The notes under the pieces were generated by a model. The model had not been told where the DNA came from. It did no database searches and was given only the letters and a program-made list of their open reading frames with translations. Both the position numbers and the translations under genes were made by a program. A stretch of DNA of 64,000 nt from positions 1,860,001 through 1,924,000 of the forward strand of contig NZ_CP058348.1 of NCBI RefSeq assembly GCF_013752535.1. The letters run 5' to 3'. The stretch comes from Bdellovibrio sp. KM01. Its GTDB lineage: Bacteria > Bdellovibrionota > Bdellovibrionia > Bdellovibrionales > Bdellovibrionaceae. Positions 45,457 through 52,906 of the stretch are shown here, piece by piece. Each line of letters starts with the position of its first letter. Position 1 is the first letter of the stretch.

Positions 45457-48400
45457 ATGTCTTTTGTTCATTTACATGTCCATTCTGAGTACTCCCTTTT
45501 AGAAGCTGCTTGCCGGGTCAAAGCGATCGCGAAAAAAGCAGCTGCGATGAATATGCCTGCTGCCGCATTGACGGATAACGGGAACATGTTTGGCGCTGTT
45601 GAATTTTACTTTGCCTGTAAAGACAACAACGTCAAACCACTGTTGGGATTGGATGCGTATCTTGCTCCAGGATCACGTTTAGAGAAAAAACAAGATCGTG
45701 ATCAAGTGGCTCAAGGGCCTCGTCGCCTGGTGTTCTTGGCGCAAAATACCAAGGGCTATCAAAATCTTTGTAAGCTTTCGACAATTGGTTACCAAGAAGG
45801 TTTCTACTGGAAGCCGCGTATCGACTACGAGGTGATCAAAGAATATAATTCTGATTTGATCTGTTTGACGGGTGGACTTCGTGGTGAAGTCGCAGAAGCC
45901 TTCATGAAAGAAGGTGCTGATGCGGCTTTGGCGAAAATCCGTCAACTGAAAGAAATCTTTGATGACCGCTTGTATTTGGAAATGTGCCGTACCGGTGTTC
46001 CAGAGTGGGATCAAATCAATCCGTTCTTGCTGGAAGCTTCAAAAATCACAGGTGTCCCTGTGGTGGCTAGTAATGATGTTCACTACATGACTCAAGACGA
46101 TCAGATCGCCCAAGAGGTGTTGATCTGTATCGGAACCAATAAAACTTTGAGTGATGAAAGCCGTTTCCGCTTGGGAACGGATGAATTCTATTTTAAAAAA
46201 CCAGAGCAAATGGTTGAGTTGTTCTCTGATATTCCAGAGGCTATCAGCAATACTTTGCAAATCGCAGAACGTTGCGATGTGAAATTCAAACTTAAAGACG
46301 ACGCGGGTAAGCCGATTTATCACTTGCCAACATTCCCGACAGACGAAGGTGTGACTTTGAAAGAAGACATCGCACGTCGTTCTAAAGAAGGTTTGCTGCT
46401 GCGTTTTGAAGAAGCTGCTGAACGAGGTGAACCTGTACCAGAGGAAAAAAAGCCTGAGTACTACACGCGCTTGGATTATGAGCTTGGTATTATCGATCGT
46501 ATGGGATTCAATGGTTACTTCTTAATCGTCCAAGACTTCATCGGTTGGGCGAAAGATAACGACATCCCGGTGGGCCCTGGTCGTGGTTCCGGTGCCGGCT
46601 CCCTGGTTGCTTACGTTTTAAAAATTACGGATTTGGATCCACTTCCAAATTTCCTTCTGTTCGAGCGTTTCTTGAATCCAGAACGTATTTCGATGCCCGA
46701 CTTCGATATCGACTTCTGTCAGGATCGTCGTCAGGAAGTGATCCGTTATGTGACTCAGAAGTACGGACAGGCTTCAGTTTCTCAGATCATCACTTACGGT
46801 AAATTGCAAACTCGTGCCGCCTTGAAGGACGTGGGCCGCGTTCTGGGAATGCTTTTCGCGGAAGTGGATCAAGTAACAAAATTGATTCCAGATAAATTGG
46901 GTATCAGTCTGAAAGAATCTCTGGAAATGGAGCCTCGTCTGACTGAGATGATGGAGATGAATCCAACGGTTGCGACTTTGATCGACCTTGCACAACGTGT
47001 GGAAGGTATGGTTCGAAACGCGGGTATCCATGCTGCCGGTGTTATTATCGGTGATGGTCAGTTGGTAAAGCATGCGCCTTTGTATAAAGGCGCTGATGGC
47101 GAGCAAGTCGTACAATACGATATGAAGCATGCCGAGAAAATCGGTTTGATCAAATTCGACTTCTTGGGATTAAAGACTCTGACTCACATCAACATGGCTT
47201 TGAAACTTATCAAAAAGAATCGTGGCAAGACGATCACTTCACGCATGATTCCGATGACCGATACCGCCACTTTTGAAATGATGTCACGTGGTGATACAGC
47301 GGGGGTATTTCAGTTCGAGGGTGAGGGTATCACCGATGCCACTCGTAAAATCCGTCCGTCGTCGTTTGCCGATATCACAGCGATCACGTCGTTGTACCGT
47401 CCAGGTCCGATGGCGAACATTCCTGACTTTACCGATCGTAAACACGGAAAAGCTCCGGTTGAATACTTGCTTGAAGATACCAAAGAAGTTTTATCAGAGA
47501 CTTACGGTATCATGGTTTACCAAGAGCAAGTTATGGGTATTGCCTCTAGAATTGCCGGTTACTCTCTGGGCGAAGCCGACATGCTTCGTCGTGCGATGGG
47601 TAAGAAAATCAAAGAGGAGATGGATCAGCACCGCGAACGTTTCATGAAGGGTGCGATCGAAAGAGGCCACAACAAAGAACGTTCCTCAGATCTTTTTGAT
47701 TTGATGTATAAGTTCGCGGACTACGGTTTCAATAAATCTCATGCCGCTGCATATTCTGTTGTGACGTTGCAGACGGCTTGGTTGAAATGCCATTATCCGG
47801 TTGAATTCTTCGCGGCACTTCTATCTACCGAGTTATCTGATACAGAAAAAATCGTAAAATACTCCAAGGATGCTGCAAAACGCGGTATCACAGTGAAATC
47901 ACCGCATGTGAATTTCTCAGAATACTTCTTTGGTGCTCATGGGGACGAAGTTTACTTCGGTCTGGGAGGGATCAAAGGTGTGGGGCAAAATGCGGTGGAG
48001 GCGATCGTCGAAGCCCGTGAAAACATGCCAGACAAAAAGTTCAACTCCCTGGATGAGTTCTTTAATGCTATCGATCTTCGCCGTGTGAATAAAAAAGTGA
48101 TTGAATGTTTGATCAAGGCCGGTGCCTTTGAAGGTTTCGGCGCGCATCGTGCACAGTTAATGGCGGGATATCAGAAATTTCTGGATCGCGCTCAAGGTTT
48201 GCAAAAGGACCGTGAGTTGGGGCAATCCTCCCTTTTCGATCTGGGGCCTTCGACGGAAACGATTGTGAAATTGGAAGAAGTTAAACCATGGAGTCGTACG
48301 GCTTCTTTGGCTTATGAAAAAGAAGTCTTGGGTTTCTATTTAAGTGATCACCCTTTGAAAGGGTTTGATACTTTGTCAGAGATCTTTACGTCTTGTAAGA

Positions 48401-48993
48401 TCGTGGATTTGCCAGCGCAGATGCCAGCTCAAGGTTCGCCTGAATGGGAGGCCATGCAGGCCGCAAAAAAAGACTGGAAGAACCGCGATGCCGCTAAAAA
48501 ACGTGTGGTGGTTGCCGGACTTATTACCGAGCTTCGCGAGCTTATTACAAAAAAAGGCACGCGTATGGCTTTCGGTAAGGTCGAAGATTTAACCGGAGCG
48601 GTGGAGTTAGTTATCTTCCCTGATGCATTTGCAAAAAATGGCGAGATGTTAAAAGACGAGCGTCCCATGTTGATTGGTGGTGGTCTTGAAGTCGAGGAAG
48701 GTGTTGCTAAAATCATGGTGGATTCAGTGTCTCCGCTAGAGGATATTCTGAAGAAAACCAAGCGCATGGTCTTTAGGCTGGATCGTATTCCACACGAAGA
48801 CTATGGGCGTTTAAAATCATTGATGACGGAGAATCCCGGTCCAACGGCAGTCAGTCTAGAAATTGATATACCCGACGTCAGTCGCCGTGTGATGATGGAT
48901 ATAGGCGAGGGATCCGGAGTTAATGTCAGCAATGAATTCTTTGAAGGGGTGCATTCCCTTTTTGGACGAACGGATTTTATTGAATTGAGGTAA
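45457..48993 (+). CDS. dnaE: DNA polymerase III alpha subunit
   Basis: This is the 1178-residue replicative polymerase. The PHP domain is at the N-terminus (FVHLHVHSEYSLLEAACRV). The palm carries GPGRGSGAGSLVAY and MPDFDIDFCQDRR with the catalytic aspartates, and fingers and tandem HhH follow (GLGGIKGVGQNAVEAI). An OB fold lies near residues 1010-1090 (VVVAGLITELRELITKKGTR). The beta-clamp motif QSSLFDL near 930 is seen. It replicates the chromosome. An envelope gene starts six bases after its stop. Confidence 0.98.
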   Translation: MSFVHLHVHSEYSLLEAACRVKAIAKKAAAMNMPAAALTDNGNMFGAVEFYFACKDNNVKPLLGLDAYLAPGSRLEKKQDRDQVAQGPRRLVFLAQNTKGYQNLCKLSTIGYQEGFYWKPRIDYEVIKEYNSDLICLTGGLRGEVAEAFMKEGADAALAKIRQLKEIFDDRLYLEMCRTGVPEWDQINPFLLEASKITGVPVVASNDVHYMTQDDQIAQEVLICIGTNKTLSDESRFRLGTDEFYFKKPEQMVELFSDIPEAISNTLQIAERCDVKFKLKDDAGKPIYHLPTFPTDEGVTLKEDIARRSKEGLLLRFEEAAERGEPVPEEKKPEYYTRLDYELGIIDRMGFNGYFLIVQDFIGWAKDNDIPVGPGRGSGAGSLVAYVLKITDLDPLPNFLLFERFLNPERISMPDFDIDFCQDRRQEVIRYVTQKYGQASVSQIITYGKLQTRAALKDVGRVLGMLFAEVDQVTKLIPDKLGISLKESLEMEPRLTEMMEMNPTVATLIDLAQRVEGMVRNAGIHAAGVIIGDGQLVKHAPLYKGADGEQVVQYDMKHAEKIGLIKFDFLGLKTLTHINMALKLIKKNRGKTITSRMIPMTDTATFEMMSRGDTAGVFQFEGEGITDATRKIRPSSFADITAITSLYRPGPMANIPDFTDRKHGKAPVEYLLEDTKEVLSETYGIMVYQEQVMGIASRIAGYSLGEADMLRRAMGKKIKEEMDQHRERFMKGAIERGHNKERSSDLFDLMYKFADYGFNKSHAAAYSVVTLQTAWLKCHYPVEFFAALLSTELSDTEKIVKYSKDAAKRGITVKSPHVNFSEYFFGAHGDEVYFGLGGIKGVGQNAVEAIVEARENMPDKKFNSLDEFFNAIDLRRVNKKVIECLIKAGAFEGFGAHRAQLMAGYQKFLDRAQGLQKDRELGQSSLFDLGPSTETIVKLEEVKPWSRTASLAYEKEVLGFYLSDHPLKGFDTLSEIFTSCKIVDLPAQMPAQGSPEWEAMQAAKKDWKNRDAAKKRVVVAGLITELRELITKKGTRMAFGKVEDLTGAVELVIFPDAFAKNGEMLKDERPMLIGGGLEVEEGVAKIMVDSVSPLEDILKKTKRMVFRLDRIPHEDYGRLKSLMTENPGPTAVSLEIDIPDVSRRVMMDIGEGSGVNVSNEFFEGVHSLFGRTDFIELR

Positions 48994-48999
48994 GAACAG

Positions 49000-50166
49000 A
49001 TGCGTTTTGCAGCTTTGATGGGTTTCTTCTTGATGTTTACTTCTTCGGTTTTTGCGCAACAGGCAGATTTGCTTGAGCGCAACTTTGCGGGCACGTCCAA
49101 ACAAACGACGCCCCAAGCGGCGAAAGCCGACATTCAAAATCAAGCCGCGCAAAAAATCTCTGAAGAGGTTATTCGCGATTTGATCGGTGAAGATCGTTAT
49201 AACAAAAACAAAGCCCTGATCGCTAACAAAGTGATCAAGCTGTCCGGTCGTTACATTCCTTTCGTTAAACCTTCTGCGATCACTCAAGAGGGTGAAGAAT
49301 TCAAAATGACGGTGAACATGAAAGTGTCCATGCCAGATTTGAAGCAGCTTCTTCAGGTAAATTCCCTTTTGAATGAAAACGACACAGTTCCGGTGGTTTT
49401 GCCGGTGATCAGTTTTGTTGATAAAGTGGAAGGTCGTAATTATCGCTGGTGGCAAAATTCTTCAGATAAAAGCCAAGGCTTTTTGATCAAGCAAGGTCGG
49501 ACCTTGGAAGAAGCTTTGCGTAGTTCGTTCCAGAAAAATAATTTCTTCGTGATCAAACCAGTTGAAGCGGGCTTGGGTACGAACATCCCAGCAAGCTTTC
49601 AAAATGAAAGAGTTGCTGGCGAAGATGCTCAATTCTTTGCGCAATACTTCAATGCCCCCGTATTGATTGACGGCCAGGTGCTGATGAATAAGGCGGACAA
49701 AGGTGGTGGCTATCGTGTGGAAGTGCGTATGACGGCCATTCAAGTCAGCAATGCGCGCCCGATCGCCGATGTTTCACGCCGTTATGATGTTCAAGGGTCC
49801 TTCGAGGGCGCTGTGGATAAAAAAATCCGCGAAGTGGCCGAGGCTGTTGCCAATGATCTGGCTTCGCAAGTTTTCGAAGCCTGGCAAAGAGGTTCCGTGG
49901 GAACTTCCGTTATTCGCGTCACGGTAACGGGTAAACACACATTGCCGTCGATGGAGGCTTTGAAAGAGCGCATTCGCTCTCAACTAACTCAGGTAAAAAA
50001 TATTCGCGAACGTTTGGTAAGTTCTGATTCTGTGAGTTTTGAAGTCGATACAGCGGCTTCCTCGAATGAGCTTGCATCTAAATTGGAAGCTTTGGATGTC
50101 AACGGCAAGAAGCTGGTGAAAGTATCTGAAGATCGCGAAGAAATCGTTCTAAGACTGGCACAATAA
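49000..50166 (+). CDS. exported FlgT/CsgG-like multi-domain protein
   Basis: The 388-residue protein has a signal peptide (FAALMGFFLMFTSSVFAQ). Residues about 35-125 look like the FlgT/LPP20 N-terminal domain: a helix-rich AAKADIQNQAAQKISEEVIRD followed by the strand EEFKMTVNMKVSMPDLKQLL. Residues 130-290 resemble a CsgG/TolB-N type fold (EALRSSFQKNNFFVIKPVEA, VLIDGQVLMNKADKGGGYRV). The rest is a small alpha/beta domain (VIRVTVTGKHTLPSMEALKE). It sits six bases after dnaE and 11 before a FlgT-like lipoprotein. The family call is by eye. Confidence 0.65.
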   Translation: MRFAALMGFFLMFTSSVFAQQADLLERNFAGTSKQTTPQAAKADIQNQAAQKISEEVIRDLIGEDRYNKNKALIANKVIKLSGRYIPFVKPSAITQEGEEFKMTVNMKVSMPDLKQLLQVNSLLNENDTVPVVLPVISFVDKVEGRNYRWWQNSSDKSQGFLIKQGRTLEEALRSSFQKNNFFVIKPVEAGLGTNIPASFQNERVAGEDAQFFAQYFNAPVLIDGQVLMNKADKGGGYRVEVRMTAIQVSNARPIADVSRRYDVQGSFEGAVDKKIREVAEAVANDLASQVFEAWQRGSVGTSVIRVTVTGKHTLPSMEALKERIRSQLTQVKNIRERLVSSDSVSFEVDTAASSNELASKLEALDVNGKKLVKVSEDREEIVLRLAQ

Positions 50167-50177
50167 GGAGGCCTTTC

Positions 50178-51104
50178 GTGAGATTGTTTTTGGCTTTGGC
50201 AGTTGTGATATCCATGGTGGGATGTATGACTGTGGACCGTGCGGGTGGTCCTCGTCGCGAAGTGCGTGATGAAAATCAGGTTACTTTGAAAGACGAATCC
50301 TCGCCAAGAAAACGCCTGATGGTTTTACCATTCCTGGATGTTTCTGACAAAAGACCTCAAAGTTTCCGAGATCGCGCGCGTTCGGCTTTTATCACGGATC
50401 TAAATCGTTCCGGAGATTTAATTGCTTTGGACAGTCGTGAATTGAATTTGGATCTTTCAAAAATGATGGATCCTGCCGGCGGTTATAAAATGACGGAAGT
50501 TGCCAAAGCTGCAAGTGCGTTAGGTGTCAGTGCTGTTTTGGAAGGCCGCATTTTGGATATTCGTGTGCAAAGAAAGTCTGACAATGTGGGTGTGGTTCGA
50601 CAACTGACGACTGGATTTGAAGTCGTTGCACAAGTGCGTGTTGTCACTGCTCGCGGAGGAAAAGAGATTTTCAACACAGTGAAAACCGTGACTTTGAAAG
50701 ACCAAGGCATTCGCGTTGCTGAGCGCGTAGAGACTGACAAGTTTTTACAAAACAATCCCGAGATGATTGAAGTGATTGTGAAAGATGCGTTCTTGGATTT
50801 TTCTCCGCAGGTGCTGGCTGCTCTTGATAAAATTTCTTGGGAAGGTCGTATTGCGGCCATTCAGGGAGATCGTATCTACTTAAACGTTGGAAAAATTTCC
50901 GGTTTGCAAATGGGAGATCTTCTGAAAGTAATGGAAGACGGTGATGATATTTACGATCCAGAAAGTGGGACGCACATTGGACGCGCTCCAGGTCGTTTAA
51001 AAGGGACATTGGAATTGATTTCTTACTTCGGCACAGATGGCTCAATTGCAATCATTCACAGTGGTTCTGGCTTCAAAGAAAACGATCGCGTAGAACTCTA
51101 TTAG
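50178..51104 (+). CDS. FlgT/CsgG-like lipoprotein
   Basis: GTG start with AAGGAGG. The 308-residue protein has a lipobox (VISMVGC), so it is lipid-anchored. Residues 45-205 have a CsgG/TolB-N-like fold (RLMVLPFLDVSDKRPQSFRD, VSAVLEGRILDIRVQ). The C-terminal 90 residues read like the FlgT C-terminal domain: GRIAAIQGDRIYLNVGKISG, then LQMGDLLKVMEDGDDIYDPE and ENDRVELY. FlgT builds the H-ring of sheathed flagellar motors. It follows the exported FlgT-N-like gene, suggesting a two-gene version. Confidence 0.68.
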   Translation: MRLFLALAVVISMVGCMTVDRAGGPRREVRDENQVTLKDESSPRKRLMVLPFLDVSDKRPQSFRDRARSAFITDLNRSGDLIALDSRELNLDLSKMMDPAGGYKMTEVAKAASALGVSAVLEGRILDIRVQRKSDNVGVVRQLTTGFEVVAQVRVVTARGGKEIFNTVKTVTLKDQGIRVAERVETDKFLQNNPEMIEVIVKDAFLDFSPQVLAALDKISWEGRIAAIQGDRIYLNVGKISGLQMGDLLKVMEDGDDIYDPESGTHIGRAPGRLKGTLELISYFGTDGSIAIIHSGSGFKENDRVELY

Positions 51105-51142: not shown

Positions 51143-52906
51143 GTGAAATCATCATTCGCACTTTGCCTTACTATTCTTGTCTCGTCTTTATTTTCTTCAG
51201 TCACTTACGCTAAAGACTGGAAGGTTGCCGTTCTTTATTGGAGTATGAAGATCGAAGGCCAGGTTGCCATGCGCAAAGGTCTTGAAGAACAGGTTCAACT
51301 TTTTAATAAAGAAAACAAAGGCAAAAATTCCATCGTTTTGGTTCCGTTTGTTGCCGGTGAAGGCCGTAAAGGAATTGAAAATCAAGCCGCGCAAATGCAA
51401 CAGGCTTTGAAGGAAAAACCCGACCTTATCGTGATTCAACCGACGGACAACTCAACACTCGCTTCTTCACTGCAAGAGGCAAATGCATTAAAAATTCCTG
51501 TGATCGCCTATGACCAGTATATCGTGAACGGGGAGCTGACAGCTTTCATCACGAGTGCGAATTACAAAGCGGGACAAGATAACGGCGAATTCATCAATGC
51601 CCAGTTCAAGTCAGGTCAAGAAATTCGTATCGCTGTGTTTGAGTATCCGGCCGTGTCTTCAACAACGGAGCGCGTGGATGGATTCTTTGACTCCCTTCGC
51701 GCCCAAAATGCAAAATTCAAAGTCGTGGGTGTCTATCAAGCGGTGGATCCTGAATCCGGCAAGCAGGCAGTAAAAAAATTCCTTAAGGATTTTCCTGATA
51801 AAAACAGCGTCGATGTGGTTTTCACCGTCAACGATGGCGGCGGTCTGGAAATCGTTAAAGAGCTGAATGCCAAGAAACGCACCGAAATCAAACATGTGAC
51901 TTTCGATGGCGATCCTGAATCCGTTGAAAATATTCGAGCGGGTCGCCTGACGGTGATTGATTCCGCGCAGTTCTGTGGAGAATTGGGTCGTGAGACGGCA
52001 AGAACCACGATAAAAGTTCTAACTGGAAAACCCGTTGAGCGTAAAATCCGTGTTCCCACATTTCCAATCACGAAAAAGACTTTAAGTGAGTACCCCGGCT
52101 GGATGGGCGTGCCGAAGCCTGAATTGAGTAAAAAAACAGAGCGTCCACGCGCAGGCCTGGTTCCTCATGAAGAATTCGATCGCAATCAAAAACGCATCAT
52201 TCGAATCGGCACAACGCCACTTTGCCCATATATCTGTGAAAAAAGCCCTGGTGTGTGGACGGGTTACTTGTTTGAAATTCTGGGTGAAGTTTCTAGAGAC
52301 CTGGGCGTAGAATTGCGTCTGGAGAACGTGGCGACAAACCGATTGAAGCAGGGTTTGGAATCCCGAAAGTTAGATTACATCATCGCTCCCGAGTACGTGG
52401 TGCGCTATATGGATGACATTTTAGTGGTGGGGCCTCAGTTGGGTGTGAACTATACAGGTGCTTTGCTGCAAAAAGATAAAAAAGCACCCCACATCATCGA
52501 CAGCAAGTCTTTGGAAAACCAGCGCATCTTGTATTCTGATTTCGGTTTGCAGGATGGTCGTATTGAGGCGGAGTTTACGGGTCATAAGATTAATAAGCTT
52601 TCGGGTTCTGATGTTGTGGAGCGGATGTTCCGCATCGTGGCGCAAAAGCGTATGGATGTGGCACTGGGGGATTACAACGTCCTTCGGTACTATCAGGTTC
52701 GTGATAAAGGCCAATTTACCCTGTATCCCACCTCTATTACTGGGTTTAGTTTCCTGGTGTTGGTGGGGCTTAAGAAAAATCCTCAGGTCCAATTATTGGG
52801 CGATGGATTGACGGATTGGTTTATTCAGGCTCGAAAAAGTTCTCACCTTCAGGAGGTCCTGGGTCGCTATAACCTGACCGACTGGAACATCCTGACTCGC
52901 GATTAA
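51143..52906 (+). CDS. double periplasmic substrate-binding protein (type I + type II fusion)
   Basis: GTG start and a signal peptide (FALCLTILVSSLFSSVTYA). Residues about 25-320 are a ribose-binding-like type I domain (ALKEKPDLIVIQPTDNSTLA, IPVIAYDQYIVNGELTAF, VVFTVNDGGGLEIVKELNA). Residues about 350-587 are an SBP_bac_3 type II domain (RIGTTPLCPYICEKSPGVWT, GYLFEILGEVSRDLGVEL). No permease, kinase or cyclase domain follows, so it may pass binding information to a separate partner. Substrates are probably a sugar and an amino-acid-like ligand, by family only. Confidence 0.82.
   Translation: MKSSFALCLTILVSSLFSSVTYAKDWKVAVLYWSMKIEGQVAMRKGLEEQVQLFNKENKGKNSIVLVPFVAGEGRKGIENQAAQMQQALKEKPDLIVIQPTDNSTLASSLQEANALKIPVIAYDQYIVNGELTAFITSANYKAGQDNGEFINAQFKSGQEIRIAVFEYPAVSSTTERVDGFFDSLRAQNAKFKVVGVYQAVDPESGKQAVKKFLKDFPDKNSVDVVFTVNDGGGLEIVKELNAKKRTEIKHVTFDGDPESVENIRAGRLTVIDSAQFCGELGRETARTTIKVLTGKPVERKIRVPTFPITKKTLSEYPGWMGVPKPELSKKTERPRAGLVPHEEFDRNQKRIIRIGTTPLCPYICEKSPGVWTGYLFEILGEVSRDLGVELRLENVATNRLKQGLESRKLDYIIAPEYVVRYMDDILVVGPQLGVNYTGALLQKDKKAPHIIDSKSLENQRILYSDFGLQDGRIEAEFTGHKINKLSGSDVVERMFRIVAQKRMDVALGDYNVLRYYQVRDKGQFTLYPTSITGFSFLVLVGLKKNPQVQLLGDGLTDWFIQARKSSHLQEVLGRYNLTDWNILTRD

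Follow-up and report, generated by a model that had tools for sequence, protein, structure and literature searches.

Two adjacent envelope genes behind dnaE in Bdellovibrio sp. KM01, here called A and B, differ in their relation to the flagellum: the presence of B is tied to the flagellum across the phylum, and that of A, compared within the class, is not. The B protein is probably an H-ring-like basal-body lipoprotein of the outer membrane that has the middle and C domains of FlgT, with A as a co-encoded periplasmic protein whose function does not depend on the flagellum.

The dnaE-A-B locus

The window, the whole 64,000-nucleotide stretch that we analysed, comes from a genome assembled as a single 3.96-Mb contig (G000:C1:1860001-1924000); the same genus also yields loci of Bdellovibrio bacteriovorus. 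Gene A opens with ATG 6 bp after the stop codon of dnaE, and its product carries a signal peptide by inspection; gene B starts with GTG after a gap of 11 bp (Table 1). Homologues of A occur in 112 and those of B in 116 of the 141 genomes of the order, indicating that neither is a chance open reading frame, and the original prediction of two neighbouring envelope genes in this place holds, with both reading frames present and conserved. A scan for promoter and terminator consensus sites yielded no more of them than shuffled sequences did, and a literature search returned no paper naming either protein in Bdellovibrio.

Table 1. Features of the locus and of shortened A genes in relatives (window positions unless a locus is given)
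Feature	Coordinates	Strand	Description and basis
dnaE	45457..48993	+	Conserved upstream neighbour of gene A; dnaE-A-B order recurs across the phylum
Gene A	49000..50166	+	Exported, 388 aa; FlgT N + middle-like, plus extra C-terminal domain
A N-terminal helix-strand domain (mature residues 1-105)	49057..49371	+	FlgT_N-like by fold; AlphaFold2, VIA; boundary approximate
A CsgG/TolB-N/PelC-type domain (mature residues 106-280)	49372..49896	+	AlphaFold2, Foldseek, VIA
A C-terminal alpha/beta domain (mature residues about 281-369)	49897..50163	+	Outside the FlgT match
RBS-like AAGGAGG for B	50165..50171	+	Sequence
Gene B	50178..51104	+	308-aa lipoprotein with the FlgT middle + C domain layout; occurs together with the flagellum
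B signal peptide and lipobox MVGC (Cys = residue 16)	50178..50225	+	Sequence, 77 homologues
B middle-type (TolB-N/CsgG-like) domain (mature residues 29-204)	50307..50834	+	AlphaFold2, Foldseek, VIA
B FlgT_C-like beta-barrel (mature residues 205-293)	50835..51101	+	Pfam FlgT_C, VIA, invariant columns
Short A, C-terminal domain alone	L173:5345-5695 (G252); L168:4555-4932 (G251)		
Short A-like genes of family f15	L183:5856-6590; L185:5669-6394; L184:6289-6693		

The order dnaE-A-B-lipB runs through family f1 and its order and recurs in the sister family f11 and in families f13, f14, f17 and f21; we take it to be the ancestral order. The conserved gene 3' of B in relatives we take, as recognised from its sequence, to be lipB, a housekeeping neighbour. 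In the KM01 genome its position is occupied by a gene for a 587-aa solute-binding fusion (51143-52906, + strand) that joins a Peripla_BP_4 domain (sugar-type periplasmic binding; E 6e-39) to a weaker SBP_bac_3 match (E 1e-4). Family f12 has dnaE-A'-B with a diverged A', which is probably a distant homologue of A, as suggested by hhalign (91%, E 1.2e-6).

At most of the loci read, A and B lie in dnaE-A-B-lipB with no flgO/flgP or flagellar cluster nearby, and flg genes were found close by in two genomes only, near A and B in G067 and near A in G030, where the neighbours are flgF-flgJ. The series in G067 reads flgLKNJIHAGF, a regulator, a PilZ gene, A, B and pil genes; A and B are convergent there, with the flg cluster and pil-like genes alongside (L051:1-18907, G067:C57). 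Next to A in one genome and next to B in another lies a secreted protein that resembles FecR by eye; these two proteins (286-290 aa) are related (L054:7539-8399, L047:5420-6292).

Folds and domains of the two proteins

Single-sequence scans of A and B against Pfam and NCBIfam, and PDB sequence searches with both, gave nothing significant; significance for their relations came only from many-homologue profiles and from folds. For B, we built an AlphaFold2 model from a 77-homologue alignment (mean pLDDT 88, pTM 0.79). The best PDB match of this model by Foldseek was FlgT in the Vibrio L-P-H-T ring (8z5n, E 4.9e-17), followed by the FlgT crystal structure (3w1e, E 1.3e-16), and the first match after these two FlgT structures stood at E 2.5e-7. 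Residues 8-293 of B align by VIA to FlgT residues 90-376 (Z 19.1 for 8z5n and 16.7 for 3w1e), which comprise the middle and C domains, showing that this part of the FlgT fold is present in B in the same domain order and that the N domain is not. The corresponding comparison with TolB (Z 12.9) covers the middle-type domain only. The C-terminal part of B also resembles the barrel at the N terminus of F1-ATPase subunits (VIA Z about 10), a likeness that the FlgT structure paper reportedly describes for FlgT-C.

The sequence profiles of B point in the same direction as its fold, though below curated cut-offs. The FlgT_C-like beta-barrel is the most conserved part of the protein; Pfam FlgT_C is matched by 72 of the 77 homologues at E <= 0.1, the window protein itself scoring 18.5 bits, under the curated cut-off of 27. 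FlgT_M gave weak matches in 5 of the 77. Pfam CsgG was matched at E <= 0.1 by 28 of them, with the window protein not included and with the best match (1e-29) in a WOR-3 outgroup. In E. coli, the membrane to which a lipoprotein goes is predicted by the residue that follows its lipobox cysteine (the +2 rule). Across the 77 homologues this position holds S, A, G, Q, T, V, M, I or E and never D, so B is predicted to be an outer-membrane lipoprotein.

For A, which had no match in a Pfam scan of the window protein, an AlphaFold2 model from a 62-homologue alignment (pLDDT 90.5) again had FlgT as its first-ranked hit in Foldseek (E 2.8e-8 and 2.8e-7), here over the N and middle domains. FlgT is thus the top PDB match of both proteins, which bears out the FlgT-like domains originally read by eye. 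By VIA, residues 6-280 of A align to residues 1-266 of FlgT (3w1e) with Z 10.0 and an rmsd of 7.4 over 216 residues; HpaA (Z 11.1), PelC (10.4) and TolB (9.9) score similarly, and the match to FlgT is not specific, because PelC and HpaA rank level with it for the middle domain of A. The best conserved part of the A family is the C-terminal alpha/beta domain. In two genomes (G251 and G252), A is cut to a secreted protein of 116-125 aa that consists of this domain alone and still lies between dnaE and B, and family f15, which is non-flagellated, has after dnaE a short A-like gene (134-244 aa) that matches the N-terminal part of A and is not followed by B. These truncations indicate that the FlgT-like parts are not a constant feature of A.

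We also looked for a separate flgT in the KM01 genome with FlgT_C and FlgT_M profiles and saw none. A FlgT_C profile search returned weak matches to B and one LysM protein alone, and a FlgT_M search was empty; the latter was run without a positive control and is therefore no proof of absence. The LysM protein (549 aa, next to a DprA-like gene) was rejected as a FlgT. Its FlgT_C-like stretch (L139, G000:C1:2483966-2484148) indicates that the barrel is used outside flagella.

Co-occurrence with the flagellum

We scored the 242 phylum genomes that are at least 90% complete as flagellated when FlgI or FliF was present and as non-flagellated when neither was, with some absences assigned by elimination since not all negatives were listed. 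FlgI was found in 223 and B in 216 of these genomes. Among the 19 genomes without FlgI, 17 are also without FliF and B, and the other two (G073 and G251) have B and FliF; as both carry FliF, we counted them as flagellated with a gap. B was present in 216 of 225 flagellated genomes and in none of the 17 non-flagellated ones (Fisher 6e-20), in 61 of 68 against 0 of 8 when genomes of 2.0-2.9 Mb were compared (Fisher 3e-7), and in 94 of 98 against 0 of 9 among 107 genomes at class level (p = 2e-10), whereas A, in the same 107 genomes, was present in 82 of 98 against 6 of 9 (p = 0.2); because the genomes are related, these p-values overstate the evidence. The flagellar link originally proposed for the pair, scored here on flagellum presence, accordingly stands for B across the phylum and is not supported for A within the class.

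Nine flagellated genomes are without B. In one of these (G128) A lies at a contig edge, and the absence of B is probably an assembly gap. Three others (G274, G275 and G276) belong to family f23 and have both FlgI and FliF.

The two genes separate in both directions. In the non-flagellated genomes G095, G096, G102, G105, G120, G123, G124, G125 and G126, of which G102, G105 and G123 are under 90% completeness, B is gone and A and lipB are direct neighbours; genus g17, which is flagellated, has B and no A. Non-flagellated genomes are spread over families f9, f12, f15 and f16, and since f9 and f12 also hold flagellated members with B, the gene and the flagellum were lost together at least twice independently. 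PilQ-type secretins are kept in the non-flagellated genomes, clearly in f9 and f12 and more weakly in f15 and f16, indicating that B does not track pili; a type IV pilus link, raised by the pil genes beside B in G067, was rejected on this ground.

The CsgG matches among the B homologues would also fit a general outer-membrane lipoprotein of the CsgG/PelC/LpoB type, serving for example in surface export or envelope maintenance and lost with the life-style change that removed the flagella. The non-flagellated genomes are small on average, and CsgG-type B-like lipoproteins occur in WOR-3 and Geobacter (L136, L137 and L138) with no flagellar genes nearby, those of Geobacter adjoining porin-like genes and two of the set giving a weak FlgT_C match. 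FlgT-like architecture alone is therefore not diagnostic of a flagellar role. We nonetheless consider such a general function unlikely for B: its association with the flagellum persists among genomes of overlapping size, most of the same non-flagellated genomes still carry A and the pilus secretin, and the two-domain match to FlgT lies far above all others.

Less likely again is the original prediction of a FlgT divided between the two genes, in which A would give the N (and middle) domain and B the middle and C domains of one jointly assembled H-ring. Such a division would accord with the adjacency of A and B, with a dnaE-A-B order found in many families of the phylum and extended to f12 by the probable homologue A', and with FlgT as the leading match of both proteins at complementary ends. 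However, the parts do not sum to one FlgT, because both proteins carry a middle-type domain and A has an extra C-terminal one, and the A-FlgT score is tied with those of PelC and HpaA. A is moreover kept in non-flagellated genomes, missing from the flagellated, B-bearing genus g17, and reduced in G251 and G252 to the domain that is not FlgT-like. We therefore consider it unlikely that A is one part of a divided FlgT, given that it occurs irrespective of the flagellum, that its most persistent domain is absent from FlgT and that its middle domain duplicates that of B.

A predicted collar beneath the outer membrane

Cryo-ET of the B. bacteriovorus motor has shown P- and L-rings that are enlarged by one or more unidentified proteins and contact the outer membrane at its transition to the sheath, together with a small outer-membrane disk of unidentified composition; BLAST searches of this species for FlgT, FlgO and FlgP found none (PMC5758724). 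In Vibrio, about 80% of flagella stay in the periplasm when flgT is deleted (PMC7175336). On the basis of the enlarged rings and this phenotype, we name B as a candidate for the protein or proteins that enlarge the P- and L-rings at the sheath. As an H-ring-like lipoprotein, B would most likely sit on the P/L rings just beneath the outer membrane, held by its lipid anchor, where it may form or enlarge a collar at the point at which the membrane bends into the sheath. By analogy with the Vibrio flgT mutants, it would aid the exit of the flagellum from the cell and the stability of the rings. That B instead builds or maintains the sheath is very unlikely: the flagella of Bdellovibrio and Bacteriovorax are sheathed (PMC7175336) and B is a phylum-wide, predicted outer-membrane lipoprotein, but its fold is that of a ring protein of the periplasmic side, and sheath status is known for a minority of the genomes.

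A, with its related N and middle architecture and its own C-terminal domain, would be secreted to the periplasm and may assist B there; its conserved place beside B suggests cooperation between the two, and its persistence in genomes that lack B suggests a broader role in the envelope. A more far-reaching version of the H-ring-like reading, in which B is a phylum-wide, lipid-anchored H-ring analogue that works without the N domain and itself forms the P/L enlargement, with A as a moonlighting partner outliving the flagellum, we put at somewhat less than an even chance.

Several observations count against a flagellar reading of B. The gene lies mostly behind dnaE, outside flagellar operons; nine flagellated genomes do without it; and its FlgT_C scores stay under the Pfam cut-off. 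The N domain, which B lacks, builds the H-ring in Vibrio FlgT, and we know of no description of Vibrio FlgT as lipid-anchored. Even so, B is a named, single-copy and testable candidate for the B. bacteriovorus ring protein. If it is one, FlgT-type rings would not be confined to Vibrio-like motors, would be workable without the FlgT N domain and would be common to the sheathed flagella of distant phyla, and a conserved lipoprotein of predatory bacteria that has no Pfam or NCBIfam annotation at cut-offs would gain a function.

Among known families, DUF2066 (Pfam), for which we know of no function, is matched by 3 of the 62 A homologues (best E 1.6e-5) and not by window A. The lipoproteins of the CsgG/PelC/TolB-N fold, of which CsgG and PelC form outer-membrane rings, share this fold with the middle-type domains of A and B, whereas B adds the FlgT_C barrel; neither curli nor Pel genes appeared in the A/B neighbourhoods listed. 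FlgO and FlgP are lipoproteins that belong to the rings or disks at the outer membrane in sheathed flagella (PMC5758724, PMC7693769); B is likewise a lipoprotein but differs from them in its FlgT-type two-domain architecture, and neither A nor B matched the FlgO/FlgP Pfam families at E <= 10. FlgT itself combines its N, middle and C domains in one periplasmic protein. A has N- and middle-like parts in a separate protein with an extra C-terminal domain, and B has the middle and C domains alone, in a lipoprotein that is encoded in dnaE-A-B-lipB, away from flgO/flgP, and falls under the FlgT_C cut-off. B nevertheless resembles Vibrio FlgT in having a TolB-N-like middle domain ahead of the FlgT_C barrel and in matching it structurally over its whole length, and, like FlgT, it co-occurs with the flagellum.
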